Virus record (IMG/VR): IMGVR_UViG_3300042453_004266
Location: 1 to 25,119 of that record
Reading direction: 5' to 3' (one strand)
Source of the DNA: a virus
Length of the DNA: 25,119 nucleotides
The position numbers were made by a program, and so were the translations under genes. The notes beneath the pieces are model-generated. The model was not told where the DNA came from and made no database searches. It was given only the letters and a program-made list of their open reading frames with translations. The stretch's first letter is position 1. The number at the start of each line of letters is the position of its first letter. Shown one piece after another: positions 1,078-20,311 of this stretch.

Positions 1078-1485
1078 TTACAAACAATCATCCAACCATT
1101 CTTGTGGAATTTCTTTCTTTGACCACAACCAACCCCGTTTTTCACAGAATTGGGCATAGGTTGTTTTACTTCCCTTGTAGAGTTTTGCATTTGGATTCTG
1201 AAAGACAAACCTAATGTCTATGTTTGGATATTGGTTGAATATCAGTTCCATCTTTTCTCTATCAGCTTTTACCCAACGTCCCTTTGTTTCCAAGTACATT
1301 GTTCCACCCTTTTTCTTTTGTAGAACAAAGTCGGGTGTGTATGTGTGGTTTGTGGCTGGTTTGATATAGGAGAGTTTCTCGGTTTCGTAACTGTACTTTT
1401 TCTTGGATTCTTTGAGTAGTTCATTTGTAACATCCTCCAATCCTGATTTGAAACCATGTTTTATCGCAACTGCATTTCTTTTCAT
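1078..1485 (-). CDS. T7 endonuclease I-type Holliday junction resolvase
   Basis: These 135 residues strongly resemble phage T7 endonuclease I (gp3, 149 aa), which resolves four-way and branched DNA during replication and packaging. Matching blocks in order are FKSGLEDVT, PATNHTYTPDFVL, YLETKGRW, a D-R-K-like helix, NIDIRFVFQN, KLYKGSKTTYAQFCEK and IPQEWL. The catalytic residues of the T7 enzyme (Glu20, Asp55, Glu65, Lys67) correspond to Glu17, Asp52, Glu66 and Lys68 here, so the active site looks intact. The T7 protein has a longer basic C-terminal tail that is missing here. The ATG overlaps the TAA of the preceding tail gene by one base (TAATG), implying translational coupling. Canonical T4 phages use the unrelated endonuclease VII (gp49). 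Confidence 0.95.
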   Translation of the reverse strand: MKRNAVAIKHGFKSGLEDVTNELLKESKKKYSYETEKLSYIKPATNHTYTPDFVLQKKKGGTMYLETKGRWVKADREKMELIFNQYPNIDIRFVFQNPNAKLYKGSKTTYAQFCEKRGWLWSKKEIPQEWLDDCL

Positions 1486-3248
1486 TATACGTCGAACCTT
1501 ATAATTACGTTCATATCTACGTCGTCTCTTTTTTCAAGTGGGGATGATAATTTACCAATGGCAACCAAGTCGTATTTATCATTGTAAAGACCAATTGTTG
1601 TAACATAAGGGTTGAAGAATGAACTTGTTGCATAATCGTCTACAAATTGTGACGAGTCATTTTTGTCCTGTCTTATGGTCCAATTTTGTGTAAAATTGAA
1701 TTCACTTTTTCTTATCTTACAAGTTATCTCGTGTTCATAGAAGGTTGTTGTACTTCTAAACGAACCTGTAAATCCGTAATTAGTTCCATCAAAATCAAAA
1801 TTACCGTTTTGACCTAAAAATGTATTTGCATATTTAGGTCTTGGGTCACTAACTATAATCATTCCCTGTTTATAGAAAACATTACCTATTCTTGACGTTT
1901 GATATGCATATCCATTTTCAAAACTATTATTACCCAAATAAGTTATTTGTTCAGTCGTTAGACCTTTTCCATAAATTCTAATTTCATCAAGATAGCCAGA
2001 AAAAGAACCAGTTGTTGTTCCATTACTTCCAATAAAAAATCGGTTAGTATTGGATGTATTTGATGTTATAGAACCAGTTGTTTGACCATGTAAAATACCA
2101 TTTACCCAAATTTGATAATAACTTGCACTCTTTTGACAAATGATATGATTCCAAACAGAATGTGAAACTGCACTTGAAGTTACAGAAAAAATACTTGTTC
2201 CAGATTTTTGAGAAAATTCTATTTTATGTTCTTTAGATAATCCAGCGGTTCTATTATAAAGTTTTATATCAAATGGATAATCTGATGATTCACCTTGTAT
2301 TGTTGGATGGTCATTACTATCAATTGTGGAAACTACCTTTGTTATTCTATCTCTGACTGTCAAATCTTTTGTTGTTCTCTTATCAAACAGAGGATTATAA
2401 GAAAGTTGTAGATTTGATTGTGTTGGTGGTATGTTTACCCAAAAACTAAATGCAAAACTATTTCTTCCACTAAAGTTAAAATTGGAATCTGCATTTCTTA
2501 CTTCATAATACCCACCGTCAAGATACGAACAAACTCCAGTTGATTGTGTTGTATCTGTTGTTAGTATACCTGGTTGATATGAAATGTTTTTATTTCTAAT
2601 AGAATCTACCAAATTTTCAAAAGGTGAACCATCTAATACATAACTTGTTGGTTTATTTCGTAGATTGTATTCTCTGTATTTTTCATTGAATCCAAGATAT
2701 AGGTAAAGATTGTCAGTCCCTACCATTTTTGTTTCATCAAAAGAAAGATCTTTTAGATTACCAATACCGTCGTCCGCCATTGTAATCTGGCGTGATGCCG
2801 TTTGACTCACATTTGTAAATTTTACACTACCTCTACGAATACCTTCACCAAAAACCCCACGAGGTAATACCATCATAGAACTAGATTCTGCCAAATACGT
2901 TATTCTATCATAATCAGTTATTACGTTTGGAAACTTATCTTTAGAGTATTCTGTATAAAAATTATGATCTAGATAATACCATAATAATTTTGGGTCAAGA
3001 CTTTGTGTTGTAAAAACTCTTTCGTAAAGAGAAGATGATAAGTTTGCAACACCGCCGTAGTATTTATAATTTTCTGGATAAAGTGCTCTGTAAATTTGTA
3101 TATCAAATAATCCATAATAGTTTTTTGGCTCATTTGAATCTGATGAAATTTCCCATAACTTATACACCTCAAAAGGTCTGACTGTATAGTCTCCCTTTTT
3201 AAGTTTTTTCCAAATTAGGCTTATATTATTTCCGGTTTGAAATGACAT
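1485..3248 (-). CDS. LamG-containing tail protein, fifth member of the paralog array
   Basis: This is a 587-residue virion protein in three parts. Residues 1-180 form a unique, Tyr-rich N-terminal region. Residues about 185-440 form a LamG/concanavalin-like sandwich, shown by FAFSFWVN, then WNHIICQKS, YQIWVNGILHG, RFFIGSNG and GYLDEIRIYGKGLTTEQI. Residues about 445-587 match the C-terminal half of the module shared with the four upstream genes, including the VTTIGLYNDKYDLVAIGKL signature and a final beta strand. LamG domains commonly bind carbohydrate, so I infer a peripheral tail or baseplate protein that may contact host surface glycans. It starts one base after the 744-aa gene and is the last structural gene before the nuclease. 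Confidence 0.85.
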   Translation of the reverse strand: MSFQTGNNISLIWKKLKKGDYTVRPFEVYKLWEISSDSNEPKNYYGLFDIQIYRALYPENYKYYGGVANLSSSLYERVFTTQSLDPKLLWYYLDHNFYTEYSKDKFPNVITDYDRITYLAESSSMMVLPRGVFGEGIRRGSVKFTNVSQTASRQITMADDGIGNLKDLSFDETKMVGTDNLYLYLGFNEKYREYNLRNKPTSYVLDGSPFENLVDSIRNKNISYQPGILTTDTTQSTGVCSYLDGGYYEVRNADSNFNFSGRNSFAFSFWVNIPPTQSNLQLSYNPLFDKRTTKDLTVRDRITKVVSTIDSNDHPTIQGESSDYPFDIKLYNRTAGLSKEHKIEFSQKSGTSIFSVTSSAVSHSVWNHIICQKSASYYQIWVNGILHGQTTGSITSNTSNTNRFFIGSNGTTTGSFSGYLDEIRIYGKGLTTEQITYLGNNSFENGYAYQTSRIGNVFYKQGMIIVSDPRPKYANTFLGQNGNFDFDGTNYGFTGSFRSTTTFYEHEITCKIRKSEFNFTQNWTIRQDKNDSSQFVDDYATSSFFNPYVTTIGLYNDKYDLVAIGKLSSPLEKRDDVDMNVIIRFDV

Positions 3249-3249
3249 A

Positions 3250-5484
3250 TTAGTTTAGTCTCACTACTACTTCAAATATACGAACTTTTCCATCATTTTT
3301 TAGTATTGGATTTCTAAGCTTACCAACTGCAAGTAATTCTTTCTTTCTATTATAAAGACCTACCGTTGTAATATAAGAATGTGGATTATTTTTGAAATAA
3401 TCGTATTTCAAAAATCCATTACTTCCACTCACATATGTATAATTAGTTGAAGTATTGAATTCATGTACGTCCGCTCTGCAGAAATAAGTTTCTGTCAAAA
3501 ATGTCTCAAATGAACGTGCAAAAAATGAACTACTTGGTCTGTACAAAGTTGGAACTGCAGCTCCACTAATTGATAAAAACAAACGATTTGAGTTTTGACC
3601 ATCTACCGAACCAGTTATAGTGTTGAATGAACATGATTGATCCATAACAACACCATCAAGAATAATAAGTCCCATCTTTGGAAAGACTATGCCCCATGCA
3701 TCATCTTCTACTTCATTATAAATACCATCTCGAATCGAACCAGATGTTACATAGTAGTATTCTTGTACTCCTTCATTTGTAACAATTTCTTGTTTTGAAT
3801 CTTTACTTTCATCAATTAGAGTAAAAAATCTAGTTGATGTTCCATGTGATTGTGTTCCACTTGATGATAATTCACATAGAGATAATTCAAAATTTCCCAA
3901 GTCAAGTTTTTCTTTGAACTGATCCCTATCTAACTGAATGGCGTAGAAATAATCTCCGTTTTTTCCATTTTTAAAAGGAAATTTTCCGTTTGTGTGTCCA
4001 AAACATTCTAGCATATATTTACGGTACATGGCTTTTGCCGGGTATAAATCAACTTCACCCTCAACATGGCTTGACCCAGAACCAGAAATATGACAATATG
4101 TTATATCAAACTGGTGGTATGAATCTCTTGTGTTTTCTGCCTCATTTAGAACGGTCAGATAATATTTTTGTTGTTTTCCTGTCAGAGAACCTGTGTAGAA
4201 AGTAGATAATTTTTCACCAGTACACTTGAACAACCCGTGTGTCTTATATTTCAAAATGGGCAAATCATAATCAGATACTTTGGATATTTTTTTGAAAACA
4301 TATGTGTTATTGTCATCAATTTCCAAATCTTCTATTATCTCATCTATGAAATCTTCAAATCCTAATTGATCATCAAATATTTGATTTTCTATAATCTGTA
4401 TTTCTGGATCTATTGGTGGTGGTAAAACTACTGTGACCGGTTCTTGTGTAACAGATACTGCATCGGGCGTCACAACCGGTGTTGTTATTGCAGTTTGAAT
4501 ATCTGTGTTTAAAATCTCGGATAACTTTTCAAGTAAATAATTCTTTATAGTTGTATAAAAAAATATCTCGACTTTAGAAGAAAATTCAAAAGCAAATGGA
4601 TTGTAAGCATTAGAACGTTCTCTATCTAAAAATTCCAAAATTGTAGATATTCTACTGTCTATCAATTTTAGATTACTTCTAATAATAGTTTCATTATCAA
4701 TATTGAATAGACCTTCGGCAACTGATTGTGGTCTTGCAATTGTTGTTACATCTGTTACTTCAATAGGAGGTATAAAATTGTTATAGAAATTCAAATCATT
4801 TGTGAATCTCTCTAAAGCAATTTGTTCTGCCCTTTCATCTGAAAAACCTGCGACTTCCCTGAATCTACCACCTATTGCAACCGGAGTTGGTGGGTACATT
4901 ACAGTTGTTACTTTTGGTGTATTAATAATAACTGGTTGTGGAGTAGGTGGTGTTGCTACGATGAAATTCTCTTGTTGTAAATCAGAGAAGTAAGACACCA
5001 ATTCATTTTTGTATTTTTCTGATGTTAGAAAAACATAATTTGTAAAAAGAATAAAGTTTGGAGAGTTGTAAATATAAACCGGTTTGTTCATGTCACTCGT
5101 ATCAAATGACCAATTTTCTTGAATTGGTAACAAACTTGCATCCGGTGTTTTATTTGGCGCACGTCTATCGAATCTATAAAGAACTTCTAGACTTGATAAA
5201 AATGTTTTATCAATTTTGGTGTATCTCGATAAATCTTCGAGAGGTTGTCCAATTAACTTTCCAAATTCGTAATAGTACCTCAAATCGGGGAGTTGATCAT
5301 TCAGCTTTTTTACATCTAAATCTTCATTCGTTGATATAAAAATAGATTGGCGTCTTCCCGATTCTATGGTATTGGGAACATTTGTTACTTCAATGGTTTT
5401 ACCGACGTTTATTGGTGAATTGAATTCACCTTGCCATAAAGAACCTATGAAGCCAACTTCTTTGATTTCATATTCTACTGCCAT
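3250..5484 (-). CDS. Paralogous tail/baseplate appendage protein (fourth of five)
   Basis: This is a 744-residue virion-type protein. Residues 1-415 are unique: an initial beta-rich region, two Pro/Val/Thr-rich linkers (about 178-205 and 336-362), a helical segment between them (about 215-330), and an acidic stretch (about 370-395). Residues about 416-744 are the shared module, starting at GLFKCTGEKLSTFYTGS. It includes TYCHISGSGSS, LDLGNFELSLCEL, FFTLIDES, WGIVFPKMGLIILDG, FNTITGS and ITTVGLYNRKKELLAVGKL. It is the most diverged of the full-length modules; for example, it has TYCH where the 366-aa and 829-aa members have YGH. A scaffold or peripheral baseplate role is inferred from the family and position; no enzyme motif is seen. 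Confidence 0.8.
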   Translation of the reverse strand: MAVEYEIKEVGFIGSLWQGEFNSPINVGKTIEVTNVPNTIESGRRQSIFISTNEDLDVKKLNDQLPDLRYYYEFGKLIGQPLEDLSRYTKIDKTFLSSLEVLYRFDRRAPNKTPDASLLPIQENWSFDTSDMNKPVYIYNSPNFILFTNYVFLTSEKYKNELVSYFSDLQQENFIVATPPTPQPVIINTPKVTTVMYPPTPVAIGGRFREVAGFSDERAEQIALERFTNDLNFYNNFIPPIEVTDVTTIARPQSVAEGLFNIDNETIIRSNLKLIDSRISTILEFLDRERSNAYNPFAFEFSSKVEIFFYTTIKNYLLEKLSEILNTDIQTAITTPVVTPDAVSVTQEPVTVVLPPPIDPEIQIIENQIFDDQLGFEDFIDEIIEDLEIDDNNTYVFKKISKVSDYDLPILKYKTHGLFKCTGEKLSTFYTGSLTGKQQKYYLTVLNEAENTRDSYHQFDITYCHISGSGSSHVEGEVDLYPAKAMYRKYMLECFGHTNGKFPFKNGKNGDYFYAIQLDRDQFKEKLDLGNFELSLCELSSSGTQSHGTSTRFFTLIDESKDSKQEIVTNEGVQEYYYVTSGSIRDGIYNEVEDDAWGIVFPKMGLIILDGVVMDQSCSFNTITGSVDGQNSNRLFLSISGAAVPTLYRPSSSFFARSFETFLTETYFCRADVHEFNTSTNYTYVSGSNGFLKYDYFKNNPHSYITTVGLYNRKKELLAVGKLRNPILKNDGKVRIFEVVVRLN

Positions 5485-5485
5485 A

Positions 5486-7975
5486 TTACCAGTTCAGTCT
5501 AATTTTTATTAGAACGTCATTATCATATGATTTATTTATTGGTTTGCTTAGTTTAGCAATGGCAAGTAATTCATTAAAATCGTTATACAATCCAACAGAA
5601 GTTATGTATGTTTGTGGATTCGTATCAAAACATGGGTGGAAAAATTGTCCTTCGCTTCCACTAACATAAGTTGGATTGTTACTGTAGTTTGCAAATGGTG
5701 CACCTACTCTAACAAAATAATGATTTGTTGTTTTGTAGTTTAGATTTCTTGCCTTCATATATGAACCAATTACACCAGAACCACTTATTGAGGTAAATAA
5801 TTTGAAAGCATTATCACCAGCAACATTACTACCAGTTACAGTATTGAATCCAAGTTCGGTATTCAATTTATATGGGTCTAATATCATTATACCAAGATTA
5901 GGATATACAATACCATATGTATGACGTGATGATGTTGCATAAGCCCCATATGTCAAACTTCCACTTATAATATCATATGAAACATATGGATCGTGTGTAC
6001 ATGATATAGTATCTGATCTATCATCAGAATCATCAATGAATGTTAGAACTTTATTTGAAGAAGAGACGGCAACATTACTTCCTGTAAACACATTATTTGC
6101 GTATGACCCTCCACGTAATTCAGCAAGGTCAAGTTCCCAATTACCAGGATCAACCCTATCACTCATACCAGTACGAGAGAAATTTATAACATAAAAATCT
6201 TTAGATGAAGTTGGTTGCCCATTTGTATAGAATGTAAATTGTGTTTCCGGCATTTCCAATGCCATCAATCTGTACTGACCATATATTGCACGAGTTGGGG
6301 TATCATTCAATTCGCCTTCAGCCCATATTGAACCAGAACCCCCATTATGACCATAGGCTACAGCAAAATATGGTGTCTTACCACAAGAATCACAATCTGT
6401 TACTTCATAATAATGTGTTTTTGATGCAGTTGGTTGTGTTGAACTTGTATGGTGACATTCTAATGTTTGTGAACCATCAAATAATCCTTTAGTTTTCGCA
6501 CGTATTTTTGCATTAATAACATCTTTGCCTAAATCCAAAGGATGATATACCTTTACGGTTTCTGGCGCACAATCTGCATCTTGTTTTCTGTAATACCGTA
6601 CAAATGCGCCTTGTAGATACAATTCAGTATACCCATCTTCGTATATTCTGGTTACATCTTTCTTTACTATACCAAAACACTTATCTGACGGATCATCTTC
6701 TTCATATTCAACTACGTGTTCTCTGTAAGGACAGTCTGGGTTTCTACCTATATCAATGTATTCGACTACTCTGCCTACAAAAACTCTAGTTTCTACGGTT
6801 CTAATTGAATCGTATCGTAGTTGTGGTCTAATCTTATCTTTTGTTGCAAATACAGGTATTCCTAATTGATATTCACCCAACTGATATTCGTCAAATACAG
6901 ATACAGTCGCAAGTCTACATGGTTTGTTTGGATGTGGTTGTGATACACCAGTTGAACCACCTTCAACTTGTATTCTTTCTTTTGTTGTTAATTTTCTACT
7001 TCCTTGTATTTCTTCTTCTTCACCAAAAGTAGGACCTTCTGGTACAGGAGGGAAAACTGGTGCATCTGGTTCTACGGTTGATTTTTCATTCAGACACTCA
7101 CCAAATCCTTCACATGAAGCCTTTATAGCCCTTGCAATTATTGTAGATGGTGATGATGCTTCGGCATAAATAGGTTTACTATTCAATACACTTCTTGCAT
7201 CACTTTCACCAACTATAATCCCAGTTGGATATGTAGAATCAAAATATTCTTGAAAGGAATCAAAAGCCCTAACAGATGTTCCATTTGGATTATCAGCTGT
7301 TGGGGCACCACAACTATTTGCCCATTTCTTATTATACCAACCTAAATTTTCTTTACTACTAAGCGATACAGTATTACTCTGAAATGCGGTATCTAGTGTA
7401 TCTAATATGAGATTTGGTCCAGGGCCAAGTTCTGATAAATCGTAGTATTGTTCTACTATCGCCTGTTTTCCACCATTTCCACAATCTCTGTAAAATCTTG
7501 AGGATTTAGACCTTGCCAATTCAATCCAACCAAGTTTAGTTTCTCCATCTGCACAACATTTATAAATTTCTGCAATAAGAATACATTGTTTGGTTATGTT
7601 GGCAAAATTAACACCAACAAACTGGTCGGAGGTTCCTTTTGATGATAATTCCTTTATTTTTCCAAGTCTATATGTTGCATTAGCACATGGATCTTGAAAT
7701 CCTCGTTGTGGTGGAGGTGGCGGTGGTGGCAGTGGTTGGTCAAACCCCGTATCCAATACAGAATTATCTAAGTTGAATCTCTCAGTTGTTGTTGCCGCTG
7801 ATGTGGTTCTACTACCGATACTAGCAGAAGTATTTTGTCTTTCTAACAAGACTTCTTCAACTGTTTTACCAGTTTCTTGAAAAATTTGACGATTGATGCG
7901 TTGTCTTTCCACCGCATCAGATTCTCGCAACCAACTGGTTGCCAATGCATCGACTGTATCTCTTAGTATTGCCAT
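5486..7975 (-). CDS. Large Cys-rich paralogous tail/baseplate appendage protein (third of five)
   Basis: This is an 829-residue protein. Residues 1-70 are helical and Ser/Thr-rich. A run of eight prolines within LPPPPPPPPQ-like sequence follows at about 82-89. Residues about 97-300 are cysteine-rich (C97, C131, C140, C141, C165, C222, C288, C294), and residues 310-490 carry more Cys plus a small EYQLG-EYQLG duplication. The shared module runs from about 497 (GLFDGSQTLECHHTSS) to the end. It includes VAYGHNGGSGS, VDPGNWELDLAEL, YGIVYPNLGIMILD, NTVTGSNVAGDNAFKLF and ITSVGLYNDFNELLAIAKL. The gene is tightly linked to its neighbours (8- and 1-base gaps). It is probably a virion structural protein; the function of the unique N-terminal part is unknown. 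Confidence 0.8.
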   Translation of the reverse strand: MAILRDTVDALATSWLRESDAVERQRINRQIFQETGKTVEEVLLERQNTSASIGSRTTSAATTTERFNLDNSVLDTGFDQPLPPPPPPPQRGFQDPCANATYRLGKIKELSSKGTSDQFVGVNFANITKQCILIAEIYKCCADGETKLGWIELARSKSSRFYRDCGNGGKQAIVEQYYDLSELGPGPNLILDTLDTAFQSNTVSLSSKENLGWYNKKWANSCGAPTADNPNGTSVRAFDSFQEYFDSTYPTGIIVGESDARSVLNSKPIYAEASSPSTIIARAIKASCEGFGECLNEKSTVEPDAPVFPPVPEGPTFGEEEEIQGSRKLTTKERIQVEGGSTGVSQPHPNKPCRLATVSVFDEYQLGEYQLGIPVFATKDKIRPQLRYDSIRTVETRVFVGRVVEYIDIGRNPDCPYREHVVEYEEDDPSDKCFGIVKKDVTRIYEDGYTELYLQGAFVRYYRKQDADCAPETVKVYHPLDLGKDVINAKIRAKTKGLFDGSQTLECHHTSSTQPTASKTHYYEVTDCDSCGKTPYFAVAYGHNGGSGSIWAEGELNDTPTRAIYGQYRLMALEMPETQFTFYTNGQPTSSKDFYVINFSRTGMSDRVDPGNWELDLAELRGGSYANNVFTGSNVAVSSSNKVLTFIDDSDDRSDTISCTHDPYVSYDIISGSLTYGAYATSSRHTYGIVYPNLGIMILDPYKLNTELGFNTVTGSNVAGDNAFKLFTSISGSGVIGSYMKARNLNYKTTNHYFVRVGAPFANYSNNPTYVSGSEGQFFHPCFDTNPQTYITSVGLYNDFNELLAIAKLSKPINKSYDNDVLIKIRLNW
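6863..6895 (-). repeat. In-frame 15-base tandem duplication (EYQLG twice)
   Basis: Two adjacent near-identical 15-base units encode EYQLG-EYQLG at about residues 364-373 of the 829-aa protein. The reading frame is kept. The units differ at a few bases, so this is not a fresh sequencing or slippage artefact. Confidence 0.6.
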
Positions 7976-7983
7976 AGTTTATC

Positions 7984-9048
7984 TTAATAATCTAGTTTAA
8001 CTTTTACTACCAATTCTCTATCGAAAGATTTCTTTACCGGTTTACTTAGTTTAGCGACTGCCAATAACTCTTGATTATCATCATAAAGTCCAATTCCAGT
8101 AACATAGACCTGTGGGTCTGTTACCATAGAGTCGTACTTTAGTACACCACTACTCGAACTAACAAAACTATTGTTTGTTGAATAGTTATATTCTCCATTG
8201 AACAGTCTTACAAAATAATATGTTGAAGACAATACTTCACTCGTTCTACCTTGAAATGAACGAGAAACATTTGATGCCATTGCACCACTAATTGATGTAA
8301 ACAATTTTAGTGCATTATCAAATCCACTTCCAGTTGCTGGAACTCGTTGTGTACTAAAAGAAGCAGATGAATCCAATGCCTGACCATTCAGAACAATAAC
8401 CCCTCTATCTGGGTAGAAAAGTCCCCACGGTGTTGTGTCTGATGTATAAATTCCGCTTGCAATAGAACCACTTCTAACATTATAAACTCTACCACCTTGT
8501 TGTGCCAACTCAGTTGTAGTTGTAGTTGAATCATCTATAAGTGTAATATAGTTTGAACCACCACCATCTATTGTTAGTTGCCAAGATTTAGTGTCCATTC
8601 TATCTTTGAATCTTGCACGATTTATGTTTATAACATATATGTATTCTGATGTTTCATTATTTCTAAACGTGAATAATGTATCACCAGCGTTCAACAGCAT
8701 CTGTCTATATTGTGCATATACAGTTTTTGTTGGATAGTCATATACATTTTGAGTGGATGAACCGGTAGAAGAACCACTCCCCACGGAATCACCATATGCT
8801 ACACTAAATTGAGCTTCGGCACCCTGTACATTTGATTGACTATTGTAAAGTTCATAATAGTATCGTTTTTGGTTTGTAGACTGAAATGAACTTGTGAATA
8901 TGGCAGTTAGACTTGCTTGATTTTTAGACCACAATGGAGCAGTAACAACCTCTTTTTGGTTTGGCGAAACGTCAATATCGTCTACAAAAGGTGTAAACGT
9001 TTTTCCATTTCTCAAACTTTTTCTTAATAAAATCTCTTCTTGTGTCAT
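7984..9048 (-). CDS. Minimal paralogous tail/baseplate appendage protein (second of five)
   Basis: These 354 residues consist almost entirely of the shared module, behind a unique 37-residue N-terminus (MTQEEILLRKSLRNGKTF...). Module landmarks in order are PLWSKNQASLTAIFTSS, YYYELYN, SVAYGDSVGSGSS, YPTKTVYAQYRQM, YVININRARFKDRMD, ITLIDDS, VRSGSIASGIY, WGLFYPDRGVIVLNG, ALKLFTSISGA, YYFVRLFNGEYNYSTN and VTGIGLYDDNQELLAVAKL, then a terminal strand ending in LDY. It is Ser/Thr/Gly-rich and beta-rich, with no signal peptide or TM segment. It is very similar in layout to the upstream 366-aa gene and lies 5 bases after it, so it arose by tandem duplication. I infer a virion appendage or adaptor subunit. 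Confidence 0.8.
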   Translation of the reverse strand: MTQEEILLRKSLRNGKTFTPFVDDIDVSPNQKEVVTAPLWSKNQASLTAIFTSSFQSTNQKRYYYELYNSQSNVQGAEAQFSVAYGDSVGSGSSTGSSTQNVYDYPTKTVYAQYRQMLLNAGDTLFTFRNNETSEYIYVININRARFKDRMDTKSWQLTIDGGGSNYITLIDDSTTTTTELAQQGGRVYNVRSGSIASGIYTSDTTPWGLFYPDRGVIVLNGQALDSSASFSTQRVPATGSGFDNALKLFTSISGAMASNVSRSFQGRTSEVLSSTYYFVRLFNGEYNYSTNNSFVSSSSGVLKYDSMVTDPQVYVTGIGLYDDNQELLAVAKLSKPVKKSFDRELVVKVKLDY

Positions 9049-9053
9049 AATTT

Positions 9054-10154
9054 TTAATACTCAAGTTTTACAGTAATTGATAACTCACCATTGAATGATT
9101 TTTGAATTGGTTGACTGAGTTTTGCAACACCCAACAATTCTCTATCATCATTATACAGACCGATAGATGTGATATATGAAACGGGTTCATTTATAAATCT
9201 TACATTGGATATGTCAGAATTACTTCCACTCACATATGTTGGATTTGTAGAATAGTTGAATTCATTGTTTGAAATTCTTACAAAGTAAAAATCTTGTTGT
9301 TTTACATCAACTGCTCTAGCAGTAAACCCAAATGATTTAACACCAGATCCACTTATAGATGTAAATAACTTGAATGAATTGTCTCCAGCTACATTACTTC
9401 CAGTTACAGTATTGAAAGAAGATGAGATATTCAAAACTTCTGCCGATATTAATATTGTACCAATGTCTGCATAAACTAATCCGTAGTAATGTGGAGCTGA
9501 TGGATTGTATATTCCATCTTCCAAACTACCACTCACCAGATTTCTAACAGGAGACGGTATACCGTTATATCCAAGACTATCACTTTGATCTATTGAGTCA
9601 TCAATAAGTTTTATAATTTTTGGATTTGAACCCGATACCTGAACTGCACTACCTGTGTGTGATGAGTTTACCTTTCCGCTTCCACTAAGTTCTGCAATGT
9701 TCAATTGAAAATTTCCTGGATCGAGTTTATCACCAACTTTATTTCTATTGAAATTTACAGCATAGAAATCATAAAATGTTGTTTGTAAACTATCACCCAG
9801 TTTGAATAGTGTTTCAGTTGGGTCAAGACAAATCAATCTATATTGAGAGTAAATTGCCTTTGATGGTGTATCACTCTCTTCACCCCCAGGTGAAGATGAT
9901 CCAGAACCAGCATAGTGACCATACGTTACTGAAAATACTTGTGCGTCTTCACAATCAAGTGATGCCGAACTCCATACTTCATAATAATATTCCTTTGAGG
10001 AACTTGTTTGTAACGAACTTGTGAAAAATGTTAGTAATTCACCAGTTCCAGGAGACCAAAGTCCTCGTGTTTCGATGGCAACTTGTGCAGATTCCATTGG
10101 TCTGCCATCATCACCTATTGGTCTAACTACGTTTCTATAAATTCTTGACATCAT
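9054..10154 (-). CDS. Minimal paralogous tail/baseplate appendage protein (first of five)
   Basis: This is a 366-residue protein: a unique N-terminus of about 31 residues, then the shared module from GLWSPGTGELLTFFTSS to the end. Landmarks are YYYEVWS, SVTYGHYAGSGSS, TPSKAIYSQYRL, YAVNFNRNKVGDKLDPGNF, IKLIDDS, LVSGSLEDGIY, YGLVYADIGTILIS, NTVTGSNVAGDNSFKLF, FYFVRISNNEFNYSTN and ITSIGLYNDDRELLGVAKL. It opens with two consecutive ATG codons. An AGGAA-type ribosome binding site precedes it, better than those of the following four genes, which fits it leading a coupled sub-operon. It is closest to the 829-aa member in the NTVTGSN block. A structural role in the virion is inferred. Confidence 0.8.
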   Translation of the reverse strand: MMSRIYRNVVRPIGDDGRPMESAQVAIETRGLWSPGTGELLTFFTSSLQTSSSKEYYYEVWSSASLDCEDAQVFSVTYGHYAGSGSSSPGGEESDTPSKAIYSQYRLICLDPTETLFKLGDSLQTTFYDFYAVNFNRNKVGDKLDPGNFQLNIAELSGSGKVNSSHTGSAVQVSGSNPKIIKLIDDSIDQSDSLGYNGIPSPVRNLVSGSLEDGIYNPSAPHYYGLVYADIGTILISAEVLNISSSFNTVTGSNVAGDNSFKLFTSISGSGVKSFGFTARAVDVKQQDFYFVRISNNEFNYSTNPTYVSGSNSDISNVRFINEPVSYITSIGLYNDDRELLGVAKLSQPIQKSFNGELSITVKLEY

Positions 10155-10171
10155 AATTTATTTCCTACGAA

Positions 10172-10867
10172 TTAGTTTCTAGTTGTAATTCGTTTCTTTA
10201 TTGTTACTGGTACAATTACTCGTCCACCAGTCTCATTTGCAGTCACTATAACTTTAGTTGTCTTATCTGTTGATAAATTTGCAGCTCTTGATGTTGGATA
10301 AACTTCAAACTCTAATCCAATTACCGATAGAGAATTTGCAGTTTCAGAGTCGCCAGCGATATTTCTCATAGGAGTATTAGATGTTTGACCGTTATCCAAT
10401 TGTTTTGTTATATCAATGGTTGCATATGTACTGTCTAAAATAGTTGCAGTATATCCAAGTGTTGTATTCAAAGAAGATACTTGTAGTCCATCACCATTGA
10501 ATCTTGTTTCTGGAGTTATATTTGACTTTCCTGTCTTTGGAAGACCGGCTGTAACTTCAACATCAGATTTCCCAATCAACACAATATATGGAATTGCAGT
10601 AGTTCCTTTTGGAAGAGTAATCAATTTATATTTCATTGATTGTGTCTCATCAGGAACCGCCTCTGTAATTGGCATATTTTCGATAGCTACACCGTAATAA
10701 TCAGACCCAAGTGGGTGTGCCGGATTCCATAAGTCATAATCAACTTCATCATCTGCTAAAGCAAATTGTGTAATTTTGAATTGACTTTTTCCTTTTGCCA
10801 GAAGTTCACGGCCCTTCTTTGTCAATATGGCATCTACTGTAATCGAGGTATTGTCTAAATAACCCAT
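10172..10867 (-). CDS. Virion structural protein, Ig-like C-terminus
   Basis: These 231 residues open with MGYLDNTSITVDAILTKKGR followed by FKITQFALADDEVDYDLWN, a type of N-terminus I associate with baseplate-region structural proteins of T4-like phages, though I cannot name the family firmly. The second half is beta-rich, and the last 70 residues (SVIGLEFEVYP..., KVIVTANETGGRVIVPVTI) resemble a small Ig-like strand pattern. A strong AGGAG at 10876-10880, 8 bases before the ATG, and a 63-base gap upstream make it one of the best-initiated genes here. It separates the gp7-like giant gene from the five-paralog array, so it may be an adaptor between wedge and peripheral proteins (inference from position). 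Confidence 0.7.
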   Translation of the reverse strand: MGYLDNTSITVDAILTKKGRELLAKGKSQFKITQFALADDEVDYDLWNPAHPLGSDYYGVAIENMPITEAVPDETQSMKYKLITLPKGTTAIPYIVLIGKSDVEVTAGLPKTGKSNITPETRFNGDGLQVSSLNTTLGYTATILDSTYATIDITKQLDNGQTSNTPMRNIAGDSETANSLSVIGLEFEVYPTSRAANLSTDKTTKVIVTANETGGRVIVPVTIKKRITTRN

Positions 10868-10930: not shown

Positions 10931-13900
10931 TTAGATTCCACTATTTGCAGAATACTGATTGAAATTTATTTTGTTTGGATCTACAATAAATAATTCAACC
11001 ACGGCTTTTCCATCTGGAGTGCTTCTTGTTTCAATGTTTATATCAGGACCAGTTAGTTTAGAACCTTCAAATCTATTGTTTCTAGTTGCAGTTGTTAAGT
11101 TATTTGGATTTTCAAAACTACCACTTACTGTTTCGTATGTTGAGTAATTTCTATAAGCCATATCTAAACTACTGGTATAATAAAACTTATAGGCACTATA
11201 ATAACTATCAGTTCTGTAAGATTGATATGTTGTAAATAAAAATGTTGATTTTGCAGCATCGGTAGTTGCCAATCCCCACCCCACACCATATCCAATATCA
11301 GGAGCACCTTCGGAATATTGTATATTTGTTTTACTGGATGGGTTTGAAAATGAACTGTTCACTACACCAAACACATTCGATAAACCCGTGCCCAATCCTG
11401 TAGAAATTGCAGCCTTTAGAGAACCAAATGTTTTATTTACTATGGTTGATTGGAATGTTCTATATTGTGAAGAAATAGAACCAGTTGAAACAATCAAAGT
11501 TTTATATTGTTTGAATGTATCTCTTACAAAATTTGCAAAACTTCCTCTAGAACTTGAAATAGACATTTTATACTGTTTTGCAATACCAGTTGGAATTATT
11601 ACTTGGTCATAGTCACCAGATACATTTATATCTTGTTCGGATTCTATACTAATCGGTATATTCGATTCACCTTCAATTTCTTGATACGAACTATCATTAT
11701 CCAATCCGATAACAATTGTTGTTTTTTTAGAAGAAATTGAAACAGATGGAATTGCGGATGAAGATATTTCATTTGTTCTATAAGAATTATTCGATTCACC
11801 GCTAAAATTTCTGACCACTTTTACCTTTGAACGTTCAAGAACATTTGGCTCTATAACCAAACCAAGTATTTCATTTACACGGGCAGGAAGTGTTTGACGT
11901 ATTTGGTCAAATACACTAAAATCAAATGCAGAAATCAATCTAATATAAGCAGTAAAATCATTCTTATTTGGATATTTTTGCCAATATTGACGTGCAAACC
12001 ATTTTAGTCTTGGATATTCTTCTTTGTCTATATTTGAATATTCACCAAAGTAGTCGTCAATTGTTGTGTAACCTATTGCCTCGTAAATATCTTCGTTTAT
12101 AATGCTTTGTGGAGAGAATGCAACCATCAGTTTGTTAGAATCGACTGAGAATTTATCAAACCTAGAAACTTCAGACGAATAATCCGGATCTAATCCGCCA
12201 ATTAGTGAACCAGAATCTAATCTTACTTTTTCTGCAAATGGTGTGTTGTTTCCTACGGTTGCAACTTCCATATTGTAAGTTTCTGTTATAGATTCAAATG
12301 CATCATAATTGAATCCTACAAGAGATGCAGATTTAATTGAACTATAAAAACTTCTATTTGTTTGGTCCGGATGAGAACTTATAATACTCGATGTTAATGT
12401 TGTATCAAATTCTTGCCAGAACTTGAATTGTGCCTGTAAATCATAAAATGATGATGTTGATGTATTTCCATTATATGCACGAGGGGCAATTACGTGATTG
12501 TTGAATGAATTTTCATTCAATTGATTGGTCCAATATCTCAATTCAAAAATAGAACCTGACAAAATTCTATTTGTTTGTGGATTTGATCCTGATCCGATAT
12601 AGAGTGTTCCGTCTGATGTCCATGATCTGTTGTATGACCCACTAGAACTACCAGTAATGAAAATACTACCAGAACGTTCTATTACAAGTTTTCCATATTT
12701 TGATGTCTTTACAAAGAAATTATAAATCTGGTTTGATGATGTTGCGTCATTACTGTATTCTCTACGAATCATCAAACTAACTGGAATATCATCATAGAAA
12801 TAATCATCATAGATAGATGCCGATGTATATGTTGTGCCATCTCCTAACCAAAATGTGATTGTTCCTTTTCCTTCGTCTGTTCCAGATGCCTTATCCATTG
12901 TAACAAACCAGTCAACACGACTACCAGAATTTTTTTGTAGAAGTGTCTGTGTAGAGTCACCATAGTAGTTGTATCTACTTTCAGGTTCCATTTTCCATCG
13001 GAATGTTATAGTGTCAGGGTATAACCAAGAACCAGTTGGTGATATTATTTTTTCCCAAGGAAGTGTAACGTAACTTGCAGTCGTAGGTAACGGATTAGTT
13101 CCACGTATATTCAAGTAATATGTATGTTTTTCCCATTCTGATTTTGGTATTATTCCTAAATCTGCATTATCTGGTCCACCATATTCTCTGATAGTGAGAA
13201 GAGTTTGTGGAATACCATATGCGGCTAGAAGTGCCTTTATACCACGAGCAGTTCCTTTTGTTTTATAGATATATGGAAGGTTATTGAATATTCTTCTCCA
13301 AACTTCCTTTGTTCTTTCTTCATATGTTTTAGCAAGATACTTGTTTGTTGTTGTTTTACCAGTCCATATCGGTTCTGTGCTGCCACTTATTCCAAGTGCA
13401 TACTCCCAAAGGTCTTTTGTTTGTGTACCATGAGATAAAGTCCAACCAAAGTTTCTAGTTGCATCATAAATCAAATCTTGTGAAAGACCAGATTTTGGAT
13501 GTTCTTCACGTAAATTCTTTTTTAGAATATGATCTGTGTATAGGTAAATTACATCAAAATGTTGACCTAACATATTGACAAATGTTACTGCCTGTTCGTT
13601 ATCATTATCTTCTCGAATATGGTCAGGTAAAGATTTTGCCAAAGCATAATAATTTGATGCATCATATTCATCTGCGAGTGTAAGTAAACCATCAACCCAT
13701 TCTTCAACAAAACTAGACGTGTATGAATAAAACTTATACTTACCTTCTTTAGTTGATATATCATATATGCTTGCAGAAGAGTTCAATTCATATTTTGGGT
13801 ATGGTAAAATTGATGAACTTATCTGATATGTGTAACTAAAGCTTCCCGTCGATTCATAATACAGATACTTTTCAAACCCATCAAATCCAGAGATTACTCT

Positions 13901-14953
13901 ATCTTTCAATTGTTTCAATCTCAAGATATTGGTTTGAACAGAACCTGTTACTGTATTTATTCGATTTATTTCCCCACTATAAAATTCAATAAGTTCCATT
14001 TTATAGGCAAAATTTTCTACTCTATCTCTTGCGTTTGAATAATAGATGAAATTTTTAAATTCACCGTAGTCTATGTTTAGTTCTACTGGTGCACCAGATG
14101 AAGAAATATATCTGTTCAGTATTTGTTCGGATGTTTGTACATTTTCAGAAAGTATCTCTGTCCAAGATTTGTATTCAGTATCTGAATTTACCCAATAGTC
14201 ATAATCGACTTCAAAATTAGGACCTTGTAGATAACTTGGTTCTGTTGGTATTTGTTCTGGTATTACAATCATTGTATCAATGTAAGGCTTCATCAACCTA
14301 ACACCAACCCAACAGGTAAAGAATAAATCTAAATCAATAGGAAGTGGATCATATAATTTGACGTAAAATGATGTTGGATCGCCATCCGATGTTACATTTG
14401 ATACATCTATAATTTTATTGTCACCGAAGTTCAAAATTATATTCGGTACAAATGATTTTGGTTTTACTGTTTCAATTACAAATCGTGCTAATTGAAGTCT
14501 TCCTGATTTTGAATTAGGATCCGAAAGAGAAACTTTCAACTCTGTTCTGTCCGTAGAAATATCGGATATGAAAAGTTTATCCTTCGATGTGTAAGAACCT
14601 ATAAAGTTTCTAATAAAGTTATAGACAACTTTATACTCACTTGGAGGGACTCCTAAATTTTCTAAGTCTTTATGAACTTGTAATTTTACAGTAGGATATT
14701 CTTGTCCAGGTATTACTTGAAAAGTATCAATATTATATGCAGACTTTACATAGAATAGATTTTTTAGAAAGGCGTGAAATTCAACATTGAATGGTTTTTC
14801 ATCAGTAATTGGATCAACAAATGTTGGATCAAATTCTGGAACGACTAATCTTTTTTCTATCAAAGAAAGGTCACTTACTGAAATTGTATCTCCCCTTTTT
14901 GGCAGATTATCTTCTGTTATTTCATCAATATTTTTGTATTCAAAGTTTGCCAT
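10931..14953 (-). CDS. Giant baseplate protein: gp7/tail-protein-I-like with LamG-like domain
   Basis: This 1340-residue protein is the largest gene in the window. Residues 1-250 have a beta-rich N-terminal region with LKNLFYVKSAYNIDTFQVIPG. Residues about 450-595 contain a helical block (FNNLPYIYKTKGTARGIKALLAAYGIPQ, about 556-583, then LTIREYGG) that I associate with P2 tail protein I-type baseplate proteins. Residues about 640-830 look like a LamG/concanavalin sandwich (TITFRWKMEP, TFWLGDG, TLYIGSGS, FELRYWTNQL). Residues 950-1100 include YPRLKWFARQYWQKYPNK. The Ser/Tyr-rich C-terminus is of unknown fold. Size and order, after gp25 and gp6, match T4 gp7 (1032 aa), which links wedge parts. 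A wedge role is inferred; the LamG-like part may reach the surface. No clear ribosome binding site precedes the ATG. Confidence 0.75.
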   Translation of the reverse strand: MANFEYKNIDEITEDNLPKRGDTISVSDLSLIEKRLVVPEFDPTFVDPITDEKPFNVEFHAFLKNLFYVKSAYNIDTFQVIPGQEYPTVKLQVHKDLENLGVPPSEYKVVYNFIRNFIGSYTSKDKLFISDISTDRTELKVSLSDPNSKSGRLQLARFVIETVKPKSFVPNIILNFGDNKIIDVSNVTSDGDPTSFYVKLYDPLPIDLDLFFTCWVGVRLMKPYIDTMIVIPEQIPTEPSYLQGPNFEVDYDYWVNSDTEYKSWTEILSENVQTSEQILNRYISSSGAPVELNIDYGEFKNFIYYSNARDRVENFAYKMELIEFYSGEINRINTVTGSVQTNILRLKQLKDRVISGFDGFEKYLYYESTGSFSYTYQISSSILPYPKYELNSSASIYDISTKEGKYKFYSYTSSFVEEWVDGLLTLADEYDASNYYALAKSLPDHIREDNDNEQAVTFVNMLGQHFDVIYLYTDHILKKNLREEHPKSGLSQDLIYDATRNFGWTLSHGTQTKDLWEYALGISGSTEPIWTGKTTTNKYLAKTYEERTKEVWRRIFNNLPYIYKTKGTARGIKALLAAYGIPQTLLTIREYGGPDNADLGIIPKSEWEKHTYYLNIRGTNPLPTTASYVTLPWEKIISPTGSWLYPDTITFRWKMEPESRYNYYGDSTQTLLQKNSGSRVDWFVTMDKASGTDEGKGTITFWLGDGTTYTSASIYDDYFYDDIPVSLMIRREYSNDATSSNQIYNFFVKTSKYGKLVIERSGSIFITGSSSGSYNRSWTSDGTLYIGSGSNPQTNRILSGSIFELRYWTNQLNENSFNNHVIAPRAYNGNTSTSSFYDLQAQFKFWQEFDTTLTSSIISSHPDQTNRSFYSSIKSASLVGFNYDAFESITETYNMEVATVGNNTPFAEKVRLDSGSLIGGLDPDYSSEVSRFDKFSVDSNKLMVAFSPQSIINEDIYEAIGYTTIDDYFGEYSNIDKEEYPRLKWFARQYWQKYPNKNDFTAYIRLISAFDFSVFDQIRQTLPARVNEILGLVIEPNVLERSKVKVVRNFSGESNNSYRTNEISSSAIPSVSISSKKTTIVIGLDNDSSYQEIEGESNIPISIESEQDINVSGDYDQVIIPTGIAKQYKMSISSSRGSFANFVRDTFKQYKTLIVSTGSISSQYRTFQSTIVNKTFGSLKAAISTGLGTGLSNVFGVVNSSFSNPSSKTNIQYSEGAPDIGYGVGWGLATTDAAKSTFLFTTYQSYRTDSYYSAYKFYYTSSLDMAYRNYSTYETVSGSFENPNNLTTATRNNRFEGSKLTGPDINIETRSTPDGKAVVELFIVDPNKINFNQYSANSGI

Positions 14954-14962
14954 ATATTTTCA

Positions 14963-16732
14963 TTAATATTTCGTCGGTAATTCTGATAGAATATTTAAAA
15001 TTTCTAAAAATTGATCATTTGTTGTTTTTTTCAGAGCTGCCTCTATATTTTCAGTATTACCATTTTCCCAAGTAACACCCAATATACCGTAAATCTCTCT
15101 AATTTTCTCCTCATTTGAACCTCTACCTCGAATACAATCGTTTCTCCATTTGTCAAGTAAGTCACCTGTACATGGGTCTTGACCTGGGGCTTGATCATAA
15201 ATAAAAGTTCTAACTGAGCTGAACCCATTTGTCTTTGTTTCGAGTGTATTTATGTCCTTTAGTATAGATTTTGCGGTTTCTAATGTTTTTATGTTTTCAG
15301 CCGTCAACAAAGATCTATACTGTTTTTTGTAAAGGTTATTCCAATCCACTATTTGTTTTATACGTGATGACATATTTCCACCTAAATCAACAAACTTCTG
15401 ACGTTGAATAGGTGTCTCTGCTTTTAATAAAGTAAGTACACGTAATAATGTATCATCATTTGATGTATTGATGTATAGTATTTTTTCCCAAGCAGATTGA
15501 ATATTTTTGATTGTATTTTTACGTTCAATTTCTTCTGGGGAATCACCTGGTTCGGGTTCTGGTTCTGCCGGTTTCAATGCATCTGCTATACCACCAACCG
15601 CCTTTTCAAAGGCTGCAAGTTGTTTAGCCGCAGCTTCTTCTGATTTCTTGGCTTGGGTTTCTAGTTGAGTCGCCAGAGCATCAAATGCATCGGCAGTATT
15701 TGTTAGTTGTTCTGATACATTCCCTTCTAATTCCGAAAGAGTAGAATTTATAGTTTCATTGAGAGAAACTATAGTTTCGTTCAAAAATTCCTTATTTCTT
15801 TCTGCCAATTCAGCCTGAGAAGACACTTCGATTATAACTTCTCTCAAGTTTGCAATATCTCGGTTTTTCTCGAATACCATTTTCTCAAATCCGTCTGCTC
15901 TTTCTTTTTCAGATTCTAATTTTACTTCCAATGCCAATTTACTATTGGAGTCTTCAACGATTAGTTTTTTCAAATTCTCTATGAGTTTTTGTTCGTCCAC
16001 ATCTGTTCCATCTGCCCCACCGGTTCCTTCAGATGACAAATCATCTGTATTTTGAAACACTTCATTTGCAATTCGTAATACATTTTTTTCTGCCTGCACT
16101 GCCTCATCTAACTCTGTAAATTCATTAGGAATAACATATCGAAGAGATTCTACTGAGAATCTCTCATCTAATAAATCTACACGAACAGATCCTTCATTTT
16201 TCAAATAGTTATCAAATGTTATGATTTTTCCAAAATCGTCACGAGTTACATCCACTTCCGTATTTATATCTGGTTTTGTTTGTTTTGTCAAGTCATCCAA
16301 AATAGTTTTCAAATTTTCGGATGGTAGAACTCCATTGGGACTACCGGTCAACATCTTTCTAACAACAAAATTGAAAAATGGGTCAACTGGTTGAAGACTG
16401 ATACCGTCTAATAAATTTTTTGCAACTACAAAATTACCATCTTTGACAAGAGCTTGTATTTTTCGTTGTTCAGCTATGTATTTTTTTACATAATCATAAT
16501 CAGTCGAACTTTTGAATTCCTTGAATCTTTGTAAAAGTTCCACCTTTTCCGGTGATTTTCTGGTACGTGATTGTATATCTGATGTTATAACAAGTCGTAT
16601 ATTATTTTCTTTGAAAAAACTTTCAAATTCTTCCATGCTACTAAATGATAAGTCTGAAAACTCTGATGTAAGAGACTCCGCTTGTGTGGGTTCAACATTT
16701 TTTTCAAAAAGAAATTGTTCTATACGAATCAT
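14963..16732 (-). CDS. Coiled-coil baseplate-region structural protein
   Basis: These 589 residues belong to no family I can name. Residues 1-240 are mixed helical (MIRIEQFLFEKNVEPTQAES...), followed by a Gly/Asp-rich hinge (GTGGADGTDVDE, about 236-247). A long heptad-like, charged coiled coil covers about 248-385. A Pro-Glu-rich linker (PAEPEPEPGDSPEE) follows at about 388-401, then a helical C-terminal domain to 589 with two cysteines around DPCTGDLLDKWRNDCIRG. The ATG overlaps the stop of the preceding gene by 4 bases, so translation is coupled to the DNRLRE-type gene. The coiled coil suggests an oligomeric rod or trimeric adaptor. Position between gp6 and the giant protein suggests a baseplate component or chaperone (inference). 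Confidence 0.65.
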   Translation of the reverse strand: MIRIEQFLFEKNVEPTQAESLTSEFSDLSFSSMEEFESFFKENNIRLVITSDIQSRTRKSPEKVELLQRFKEFKSSTDYDYVKKYIAEQRKIQALVKDGNFVVAKNLLDGISLQPVDPFFNFVVRKMLTGSPNGVLPSENLKTILDDLTKQTKPDINTEVDVTRDDFGKIITFDNYLKNEGSVRVDLLDERFSVESLRYVIPNEFTELDEAVQAEKNVLRIANEVFQNTDDLSSEGTGGADGTDVDEQKLIENLKKLIVEDSNSKLALEVKLESEKERADGFEKMVFEKNRDIANLREVIIEVSSQAELAERNKEFLNETIVSLNETINSTLSELEGNVSEQLTNTADAFDALATQLETQAKKSEEAAAKQLAAFEKAVGGIADALKPAEPEPEPGDSPEEIERKNTIKNIQSAWEKILYINTSNDDTLLRVLTLLKAETPIQRQKFVDLGGNMSSRIKQIVDWNNLYKKQYRSLLTAENIKTLETAKSILKDINTLETKTNGFSSVRTFIYDQAPGQDPCTGDLLDKWRNDCIRGRGSNEEKIREIYGILGVTWENGNTENIEAALKKTTNDQFLEILNILSELPTKY

Positions 16733-17901
16733 CTTGAAACCTTGAAATAATATTGATTATCAAATATTTGAGATATGTCACCACCGTCTGTTTCTGATTT
16801 AATCAACACCCTATAAAATCTTTCTGGTTGAAATGAATTCATCCAAAGTTTGAAATAATTACCTTCACTATCACAACTGATTTTTGAACCTGTTTTATCA
16901 AATGGAATTATTATCTCATCCGTGTGAGCATCTCTAATTTCATAATAAGAAGATGTTGGTAGAAAATAATTTTGGGTGTAGTATGATTGTGTTGTATATG
17001 TCTTTTGCGGATATTTACTATTCACATAGATTCTTATTTTTGCCTTTTCTGTTTCAGAATATGATTTTTTTAGATTTACATTGATTAGTGTATCGTCTAA
17101 AGAAATTCGTGAAAGACTACCAGTTTGAAACGATGAGTCATCCCAAACAACAAAAAGTTTTGGAACATATATTGTATTACTATCTACTGAAAAGAATTTC
17201 AAGCTTGGTAATGATTCTGTTGAAGACTCTATTTGATTTGAGAATTTCAAAATAAATCCATCATTTTCAAATCTACCAGATCCAGTTATCCATTTTTTTA
17301 CGATAGAACTAACGTCCATGTAAATGTCTGATGATTCATATGAAAAAGATTGAGTACATACTGTGTTCTCAAATGTCCACCATGTTCCACCACCTACTGA
17401 TGAAAAGTAAGAACCTGTTGTACTTGCATAAAGTGCACCAAAAATTAAGTTAGCATCGACCCATGAATCAGAGATTTCATCCCATTCATAGTTTATACCA
17501 CCAGTTACTGCCGTTACACCCCATAATGTTCCAACTGATTTAGACGAACGATATTTCCAAGAGACACCATCTGTTGTTGCTGGTGTATTCGAATATTTAC
17601 CAGTACCGTTTGTCCATGACCCACTCAAAGGGTATGCATATATCGTATATTCTTGTGGTATCTCTTTTACATCCGCAGTTCTAAGTTGTAAGTAGTATTT
17701 CGCATTAGACGATATTTTTCCAGAATTTACATCAGACTCTATACCAGATACATCGAACTTCATCAAAATTCTACTATTATATTTTGATGAACTACCTACC
17801 AATTCATGAGATAATTCTAAAATCTGGTCTGTACCAGTATTTAGGGATTCTGTTTTTTCATAGATTGTAGAATCAAATTTTGGATAAATGGTGTATATCA
17901 T
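16729..17901 (-). CDS. DNRLRE-type virion structural protein
   Basis: These 390 residues have the features of a DNRLRE-like domain in the first ~230. There is an opening DSTIYEKTESLNTGTDQILEL, then SRILMKFDVSG, YYLQLRTADV and the SWTNGTGKYSNTP loop. Further on are IVKKWITGSGRFENDGFILKF and a short C-terminal beta-rich domain (FYRVLIKSETDGGDI...). Proteins with this fold are usually extracellular or surface-exposed beta structures. Here the gene lies directly after gp6, with a 4-base ATGA overlap on both sides, inside the wedge operon. I infer a structural baseplate or appendage protein; no enzymatic residue set is evident. The family call rests on pattern recognition alone. Confidence 0.65.
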   Translation of the reverse strand: MIYTIYPKFDSTIYEKTESLNTGTDQILELSHELVGSSSKYNSRILMKFDVSGIESDVNSGKISSNAKYYLQLRTADVKEIPQEYTIYAYPLSGSWTNGTGKYSNTPATTDGVSWKYRSSKSVGTLWGVTAVTGGINYEWDEISDSWVDANLIFGALYASTTGSYFSSVGGGTWWTFENTVCTQSFSYESSDIYMDVSSIVKKWITGSGRFENDGFILKFSNQIESSTESLPSLKFFSVDSNTIYVPKLFVVWDDSSFQTGSLSRISLDDTLINVNLKKSYSETEKAKIRIYVNSKYPQKTYTTQSYYTQNYFLPTSSYYEIRDAHTDEIIIPFDKTGSKISCDSEGNYFKLWMNSFQPERFYRVLIKSETDGGDISQIFDNQYYFKVSR

Positions 17902-19799: not shown

Positions 19800-20311
19800 T
19801 AGTTTTGTGCCTCTTCAGTTATACGAATAGTTGCCATTTCTGATATAAATATCCGTATCGGTAAATATATGTTGGTTCCTTTGATACTGACTCTCAGAAA
19901 TATACCAACAACATGATTTGGATCTACAACTCTACCATCTTCTGACATATTCAATGTTACAGTTAGTTGAGTTATAAACAGATAAGGTAACCATCTTCCT
20001 ATTGCAGATTCAATTTCTCCCTTTAGAGAATTTTTGAATTGACTTTCATCTGATATATTTTCAAATAAAACTCTTCTAATATCTGTTCCAAATTCAGGTT
20101 GGAAATATCTTTCCCCCTTTGCGGTAAGTAATAGATTTTTCAAGTTACTTAGAACTTGGTCTCTGTTTGTTACCGTTTTGAAAAATATGCCACTCGGATT
20201 GTTGAATGGTAGAGAAACACCAATTGGTTTTGTTGTAACTGGGGTTATAAAATCTGCTTGATTTCCAGCTAACGTTACAGGATCAATTATTACGGTTTTT
20301 CTTCTAAACAC
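19799..20311 (-). CDS. 25: Baseplate wedge protein gp25 (GPW/gp25 family)
   Basis: These 170 residues carry the gp25 core: SNLKNLLLTAKGERYFQPEF, then GTDIRRVLFENI, a helix with LKGEIESAIGRWLPYL, and beta strands QLTVTLNMSEDG and IFLRVSIKG. gp25 is the wedge protein that with gp6 and gp53 triggers sheath contraction. T4 gp25 has 132 residues; the extra length here is an N-terminal extension with the IGVSLPFNNPSGIF segment and a short C-terminal tail. The start is GTG, preceded at 7 bases by GGGAG, which overlaps the end of the upstream gene. Its stop is shared with the gp6 start (TAATG). Confidence 0.93.
   Translation of the reverse strand: MFRRKTVIIDPVTLAGNQADFITPVTTKPIGVSLPFNNPSGIFFKTVTNRDQVLSNLKNLLLTAKGERYFQPEFGTDIRRVLFENISDESQFKNSLKGEIESAIGRWLPYLFITQLTVTLNMSEDGRVVDPNHVVGIFLRVSIKGTNIYLPIRIFISEMATIRITEEAQN

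Follow-up and report, generated by a model that had tools for sequence, protein, structure and literature searches.

Why does a phage keep, side by side, five genes whose products share a C-terminal module and differ ahead of it, and what could such a set of proteins do? The genes lie in a window of 25,119 bases, which is a whole IMG/VR record and carries its long ORFs on the minus strand. A first-pass annotation had read them as appendage proteins produced by repeated tandem duplication and exchange of N-termini around one docking or assembly module. Here we compare the array with its relatives, follow the history of its copies and weigh what its products may do.

The array and its common module

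The array consists of five consecutive genes at 1485-10154 on the minus strand, named here by their length in codons: g366 (position 1, 9054-10154), g354 (position 2, 7984-9048), g829 (position 3, 5486-7975), g744 (position 4, 3250-5484) and g587 (position 5, 1485-3248). The lengths of 366, 354, 829, 744 and 587 amino acids, the coordinates and the adjacency given by the first-pass annotation were reproduced exactly. Neighbouring genes are separated by 1-8 bases, hence the five very likely form one transcription unit.

All-against-all BLASTP demonstrated that g366, g354, g829 and g744 share a full module of ~332 positions, with pairwise identity of 34-46% over 320-360 residues (E 1e-43 to 4e-92), in good agreement with the ~320-335 residues claimed earlier for four members. 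The module occupies 9054-10070 in g366, 7984-8943 in g354, 5486-6493 in g829 and 3250-4242 in g744. It is preceded by 28, 35, 494 and 414 residues, respectively, close to the range of ~31 to ~490 initially reported. The C-terminal signature and blocks said to be common to the genes (YGxxxGSGS, LIDDS, FKLFTSISG and IGLYND..ELLAVAKLS.P) are present in the module alignment. A module profile built without the window's sequences detected all five array proteins (E 3e-129, 3e-124, 4e-124, 1e-114 and 7e-17) and gave no match at E<=10 among 1000 shuffled copies or among four other window proteins. In virtually all full-module proteins the module is the extreme C-terminus, with 0-1 residues beyond it; the exception is that of locus L038, with 14 residues.

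The fifth protein, g587, consists of an N-terminal region, a LamG/ConA lectin domain and no more than the C-terminal portion of the module. BLASTP aligned its last 40-190 residues with the other four (E 4e-9 to 4e-7), and the profile alignment of the C-termini, by which the relationship was to be judged, proved significant: hhalign aligned residues 222-366 of g366 to 452-587 of g587 (probability 99.2, E 2e-19). As this match spans ~127 columns, g587 shares more than the signature and far less than the full module. The common part, ~135 residues at 1485-1895 on the minus strand, was also found by HMM (E 3e-16). The lectin domain, Laminin_G_3 (PF13385), covers residues 324-435 (1944-2279, minus strand; E 1.6e-14, 54.7 bits against a gathering cut-off of 27.6), and LamG was found in 48 of 53 g587-type proteins. 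The PDB profile matches of g587, among them clostridial neurotoxin binding domains and pentraxins, go back to no more than the jelly-roll that lectins have in common, and nothing points to a toxin.

The AlphaFold2 model of g366 (mean pLDDT 88.7) matched no PDB fold (best E 0.16), and the role of the module is for this reason not readable from structure. Searched against a library of predicted viral structures, the same model gave 11 matches at E<=0.001; most of these are uncharacterised proteins of phages, and two bear lectin/LamG names. Another, UPI000018F680 (416 aa), we take from its equal length to be the RM378 protein Rm378p128. Pfam holds no family for the module, and g366, g354 and g829 have no Pfam match at all at E<=1, in scans of a kind that can overlook remote domains. 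PHROG hits of the module family were marginal and scattered, none of them convincing. Marginal PDB sequence matches, mostly to caspase-3 (best E 0.06), were taken as chance, and profile comparison gave no support for a relation between the module and the neighbouring g231.

In order of transcription the array is preceded by g451, g966, g137, g170, g633, g390, g589, g1340 and g231, and followed by endonuclease I and by a final ORF that starts with TTG. The minus-strand genes g170 (19799-20311) and g633 (17898-19799) encode baseplate wedge subunits of the gp25/W type (PF04965, E 6e-9, above the cut-off; PHROG 261, E 6e-16) and of the gp6/J type (PHROG 6, E 4e-19); the operon thus holds both homologues by which a T4-like baseplate cluster is recognised. 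The order gp25, gp6, g390, g589, g1340, g231, array, endonuclease I is largely kept across relatives. The array stands at the end of a baseplate operon in a mostly uncultured, far-T4-like phage group. By synteny, two minus-strand genes of this operon are candidate partners of the array: g231 (10172-10867), which nearly all relatives keep immediately upstream of their first module gene, and g1340 (10931-14953), a large conserved neighbour and candidate baseplate protein, which has no match in Pfam or PHROG. At one locus (L018, 3533-7561) two ORFs of 747 and 579 aa take the place of the g1340 homologue, which is a single ORF of 1342 aa in the close relative L017; the split could be due to a frameshift, an insertion or misassembly.

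Other genes of the window were also noted. The product of g390 (16729-17901), a gene that nearly all relatives keep between those for gp6 and g1340, matches the carbohydrate-binding module CBM96 above the Pfam cut-off (E 3e-7). That of g966 (20750-23650) has collagen-like GTSG repeats (a weak Pfam match) and, by eye, a WCGxWVNYCL stretch resembling CHAP/NlpC peptidases; the matching place in phage Mel-JY01 is annotated 'putative chitinase'. The endonuclease I gene (1078-1485, Pfam E 9e-41) adjoins the array; most relatives, too, have it next to the array or within a few genes of it.

Relatives and the history of the copies

Annotated phages with matches were limited to Mel-JY01, Flavobacterium phage immuto (four records), uncultured phage LR756508 and Rhodothermus phage RM378. 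Immuto infects Flavobacterium, RM378 infects Rhodothermus, and Mel-JY01 is recorded from Microcystis. A profile scan of IMG/VR matched at least 600 stretches, at least 591 of them confirmed as relatives: the phage group that carries the module is very common and almost uncultured. A scan of genome contigs added 11 loci, and several of them lie in MAGs of Flavobacteriaceae or Flavobacteriales.

In Mel-JY01 (PP395634) all five genes (WWT39513 to WWT39517, each annotated 'hypothetical protein') recur in the window's order, behind the same baseplate genes; a literature search found no description of them as an array. Its best-matching members share 48-66% identity with those of the window, and at positions 3 and 4 its N-termini are alignable with the window's over 34% and 54% of their length. 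Immuto (gp106, gp105), LR756508 and RM378 (Rm378p128) likewise carry a homologous full module directly after the g231 homologue, remote in RM378 (24-25% identity), yet each has one full-module protein instead of the window's expanded set; a tail-only protein is also present in LR756508 and immuto. Searches of whole records showed that module places and array places coincide, with five in Mel-JY01, two in immuto, one in RM378 and two or five in large contigs.

Among the loci read, full modules range from 1 to 7 per relative. The commonest arrangement is one full-module plus one tail-only (LamG) protein, at about 60 loci that are not all independent samples. Four plus one in fixed order was found at 18 loci and in the window, and two full modules plus one tail-only protein at L038, L044 and L109. 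The largest array, at L074 (9788-20094) and also L075, has seven consecutive full-module proteins of 419, 411, 543, 430, 490, 767 and 363 aa, several of them on very long branches. A Methylococcaceae MAG contig (L119, 8585-14083) encodes two consecutive tail-only proteins of 554 and 1273 aa; no full-module protein was found in the stretch read.

In a tree of 86 modules, positions 1, 2, 3 and 4 each form one clade (SH-aLRT 99-100), and g354 (position 2) groups with the single-copy modules of two-gene relatives. One clade per position indicates that the copies arose before the five-gene group radiated and were not homogenised; gene conversion among the modules of one genome was not seen. A backbone tree of four genes (FastTree, with some gappy rows) placed the five-gene group in one clade, to which L074 and L109 are the nearest outgroups, and in this sampled tree the five-gene state arose once. 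L038 and L044 are placed elsewhere in it, indicating that expansion happened at least twice. From its breadth among relatives we infer that the one-plus-one arrangement is ancestral, in a tree whose root is not fixed. Pseudogene copies are unlikely, as all five array genes are under purifying selection.

Of the history proposed by the first-pass annotation, repeated tandem duplication stands, as an old process, and exchange of N-termini between paralogues is not supported as the origin of the array. A cross-position search among N-termini revealed no move between positions inside five-gene arrays, and recent swapping between paralogues is ruled out there by the absence of cross-position N-terminal homology. 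What exchange there is runs within a position: g829 orthologues are mosaic, and two lineages encode the N-terminal domain of g744 as a gene of its own. The one odd match of the cross-position search was a weak one, to L102 (8222-11065), which outside the usual context encodes a 947-aa module protein whose N-terminus weakly resembles that of position 3 (E 3e-4) and whose C-terminal end has the position-4 form, possibly a true move of an N-terminus between positions.

Variable N-termini of g829 and g744

The N-terminus of g829 (6494-7975, minus strand) is fast-evolving and mosaic among relatives. Its layout comprises a helical part (residues 1-53), a Pro-rich linker, a Cys-containing beta domain (~96-297), a second linker and a long-strand beta domain (~314-465); the beta-rich character rests on a predicted model of low confidence (pLDDT 63), for which a fold search gave no usable match. 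In L011, L014 and L015, 35-41% of this N-terminus is still alignable at a module identity of ~84-85%. L015 resembles L014 and L011 over residues 81-200 and L012 over 320-480, and L012 in turn resembles L017 at residues 80-160 and the window and L007 further on. Cys and YYD landmarks, followed by eye, recur in most orthologues, which suggests that the N-termini differ in large part because one domain type diverged fast, and not because an unrelated one replaced it.

The N-terminus of g744 (4243-5484, minus strand) varies in gene structure as well. Residues 1-186 correspond to a domain encoded as its own ORF in L017 (317 + 453 codons) and in L132, L133 and L150 (321 + 457), so fission or fusion of this domain has occurred. 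In L024, L032, L033 and L035 an ORF of ~145 aa between positions 3 and 4 stands in place of the position-4 N-terminal part; it has no HMM match to the g744 N-terminal domain. Scans of IMG/VR with the N-termini alone returned relatives largely on known array contigs, with two short ones, L131 and L133.

Comparison of L011 with L014 gave dN/dS of 0.03-0.06 for the modules and the two module-only genes (0.04-0.06 for the g829 and g744 modules) and 0.04 for the neighbour g1340, against 0.17 for the N-terminus of g829 and 0.14 for that of g744. Between the window and L007, pN/pS was 0.12 in the modules of g829 and g744, against 0.47-0.48 in the N-termini of these two proteins, rough ratios because synonymous sites are near saturation. 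The module is thus under strong purifying selection, and the rate of change is 2-5 times higher in the N-termini of g829 and g744. Together these data indicate that diversification runs within positions, by fast substitution, mosaic recombination and fission or fusion of the g744 domain, and they bear out the earlier view of a constant part in a structural setting joined to diverging N-termini.

Proposed function and comparison with known tail proteins

The operon setting, the constraint on the module and its near-invariant C-terminal place argue for a docking or assembly part. On balance we consider it probable that the five are proteins of the tail or baseplate periphery that dock by the C-terminal module and hold variable domains, N-terminal or lectin, towards the cell surface. 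Coming from one late baseplate operon, they would be virion proteins, each docked by its module on a common partner, the baseplate, most likely via g1340 or g231. A literature search found no virion proteomics or structure papers on the relatives, including Mel-JY01 and immuto, and the presence of the five in the virion, the docking by the module and the contact of the N-termini with the host are inferred. The products of g366 and g354, which have little beyond the module, would probably be structural connectors; g829 and g744 would hold out fast-diverging N-terminal domains and g587 its lectin domain, and these three parts are the candidates for host range in such phages. From a one-plus-one ancestor, old tandem duplications would have led to copies that each kept place and job, after which the N-terminal domains would have diversified by the routes described above, as expected of parts that contact the host surface.

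The fixed gene order and the single clade per position could also reflect modules that dock mainly on each other, assembling into a hetero-oligomeric ring or collar around the rim of the baseplate with one specialised subunit per quasi-equivalent position; the N-termini would then serve chiefly as spacers or braces. Two of the five proteins having little beyond the module, and a module as constrained as neighbouring genes of the baseplate operon, fit such a structure too. We nevertheless consider it unlikely, since relatives with two genes or one would have to make the same site from a single full module, and fast, mosaic N-termini suggest surface contact over bracing. A single long fibre built from the five as consecutive segments, end to end like T4 gp34-gp37 and with the module as the joint, is improbable: such a chain needs matching N-terminal acceptors, the N-termini are unrelated between positions, and relatives with one or two members are common, even if consecutive genes in fixed order with a single type of C-terminal joint, and the long-strand beta domains in the low-confidence model of g829, would suit a fibre.

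Most tail fibres attach by the N-terminus and bind with the distal C-terminus, and polarity therefore argues both ways for C-terminal docking. That the module itself binds a common cell-surface feature, with the varied N-termini as adaptors placing it at different sites, would agree with this general rule; we hold it to be very improbable, because the module changes no faster than neighbouring genes of the baseplate operon while the N-termini are fast and mosaic, and because the last residues of the module resemble a docking motif and not a receptor-binding domain.

This resemblance is to the docking domain of P2 gpH, in which the motif (R)E.GL(Y/F)D..G.L.AV.N aligns with the module's YITTIGLYND..ELLAVAKLS.P. 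Over the last ~36 residues hhalign gave E 1e-4 and 6.5e-5 (22-36 columns, probability 58-64%), with scores of 38-41 against at most 20, and a best E of 0.04, in 100 column shuffles. The module has no Pfam match to the gpH domain, and we regard the likeness as a lead. The gpH gene follows W and J in P2 as the array follows gp25 and gp6 in the window, a corresponding place, yet the gpH docking domain is N-terminal, whereas the module is at the extreme C-terminus in nearly all members. The likeness of g231 to the gpH docking domain is weak, barely exceeds that of shuffles (26.1 against 22.8) and is not taken as homology, and hhalign did not support g1340 as a P2 gpI homologue (E 0.04). For the T4 gp9-gp12 families of the short fibre and baseplate periphery there was no convincing PHROG match, and the g366 model matched no such fold in the PDB.

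Several surface-contact proteins per virion, as proposed for the array, are carried by multi-fibre phages such as the Klebsiella jumbo phage phiKp24 (PMC9700779). The sign of such a set, two or more proteins per genome that share a module and differ elsewhere, is found in the window, where the module would be the docking part. Among the variable parts a lectin domain (LamG) occurs in g587 only; the N-termini of g829 and g744 have no family match, with no receptor-binding or enzymatic domain in Pfam, and no depolymerase or beta-helix domain was found in the array proteins. More tentatively, the array may represent an undescribed, expandable attachment system of far-T4-like phages, in which a C-terminal docking module with no fold match holds one to seven proteins per tail, positions were specialised early, and only the outward N-termini diversify by mosaic exchange. 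The series of 1, 2, 4 and 7 full modules, with paralogue clades that can be traced, offers a test of how phages enlarge their host-contact set. In the long tail fibre of A-1(L) the shoulder consists of residues 1-155 (PMC10966104). The array would use one attachment principle with the constant part at the C-terminus, unlike the usual N-terminal attachment of tail fibres, and if docking is indeed C-terminal, it would be a compact counter-example to that polarity.
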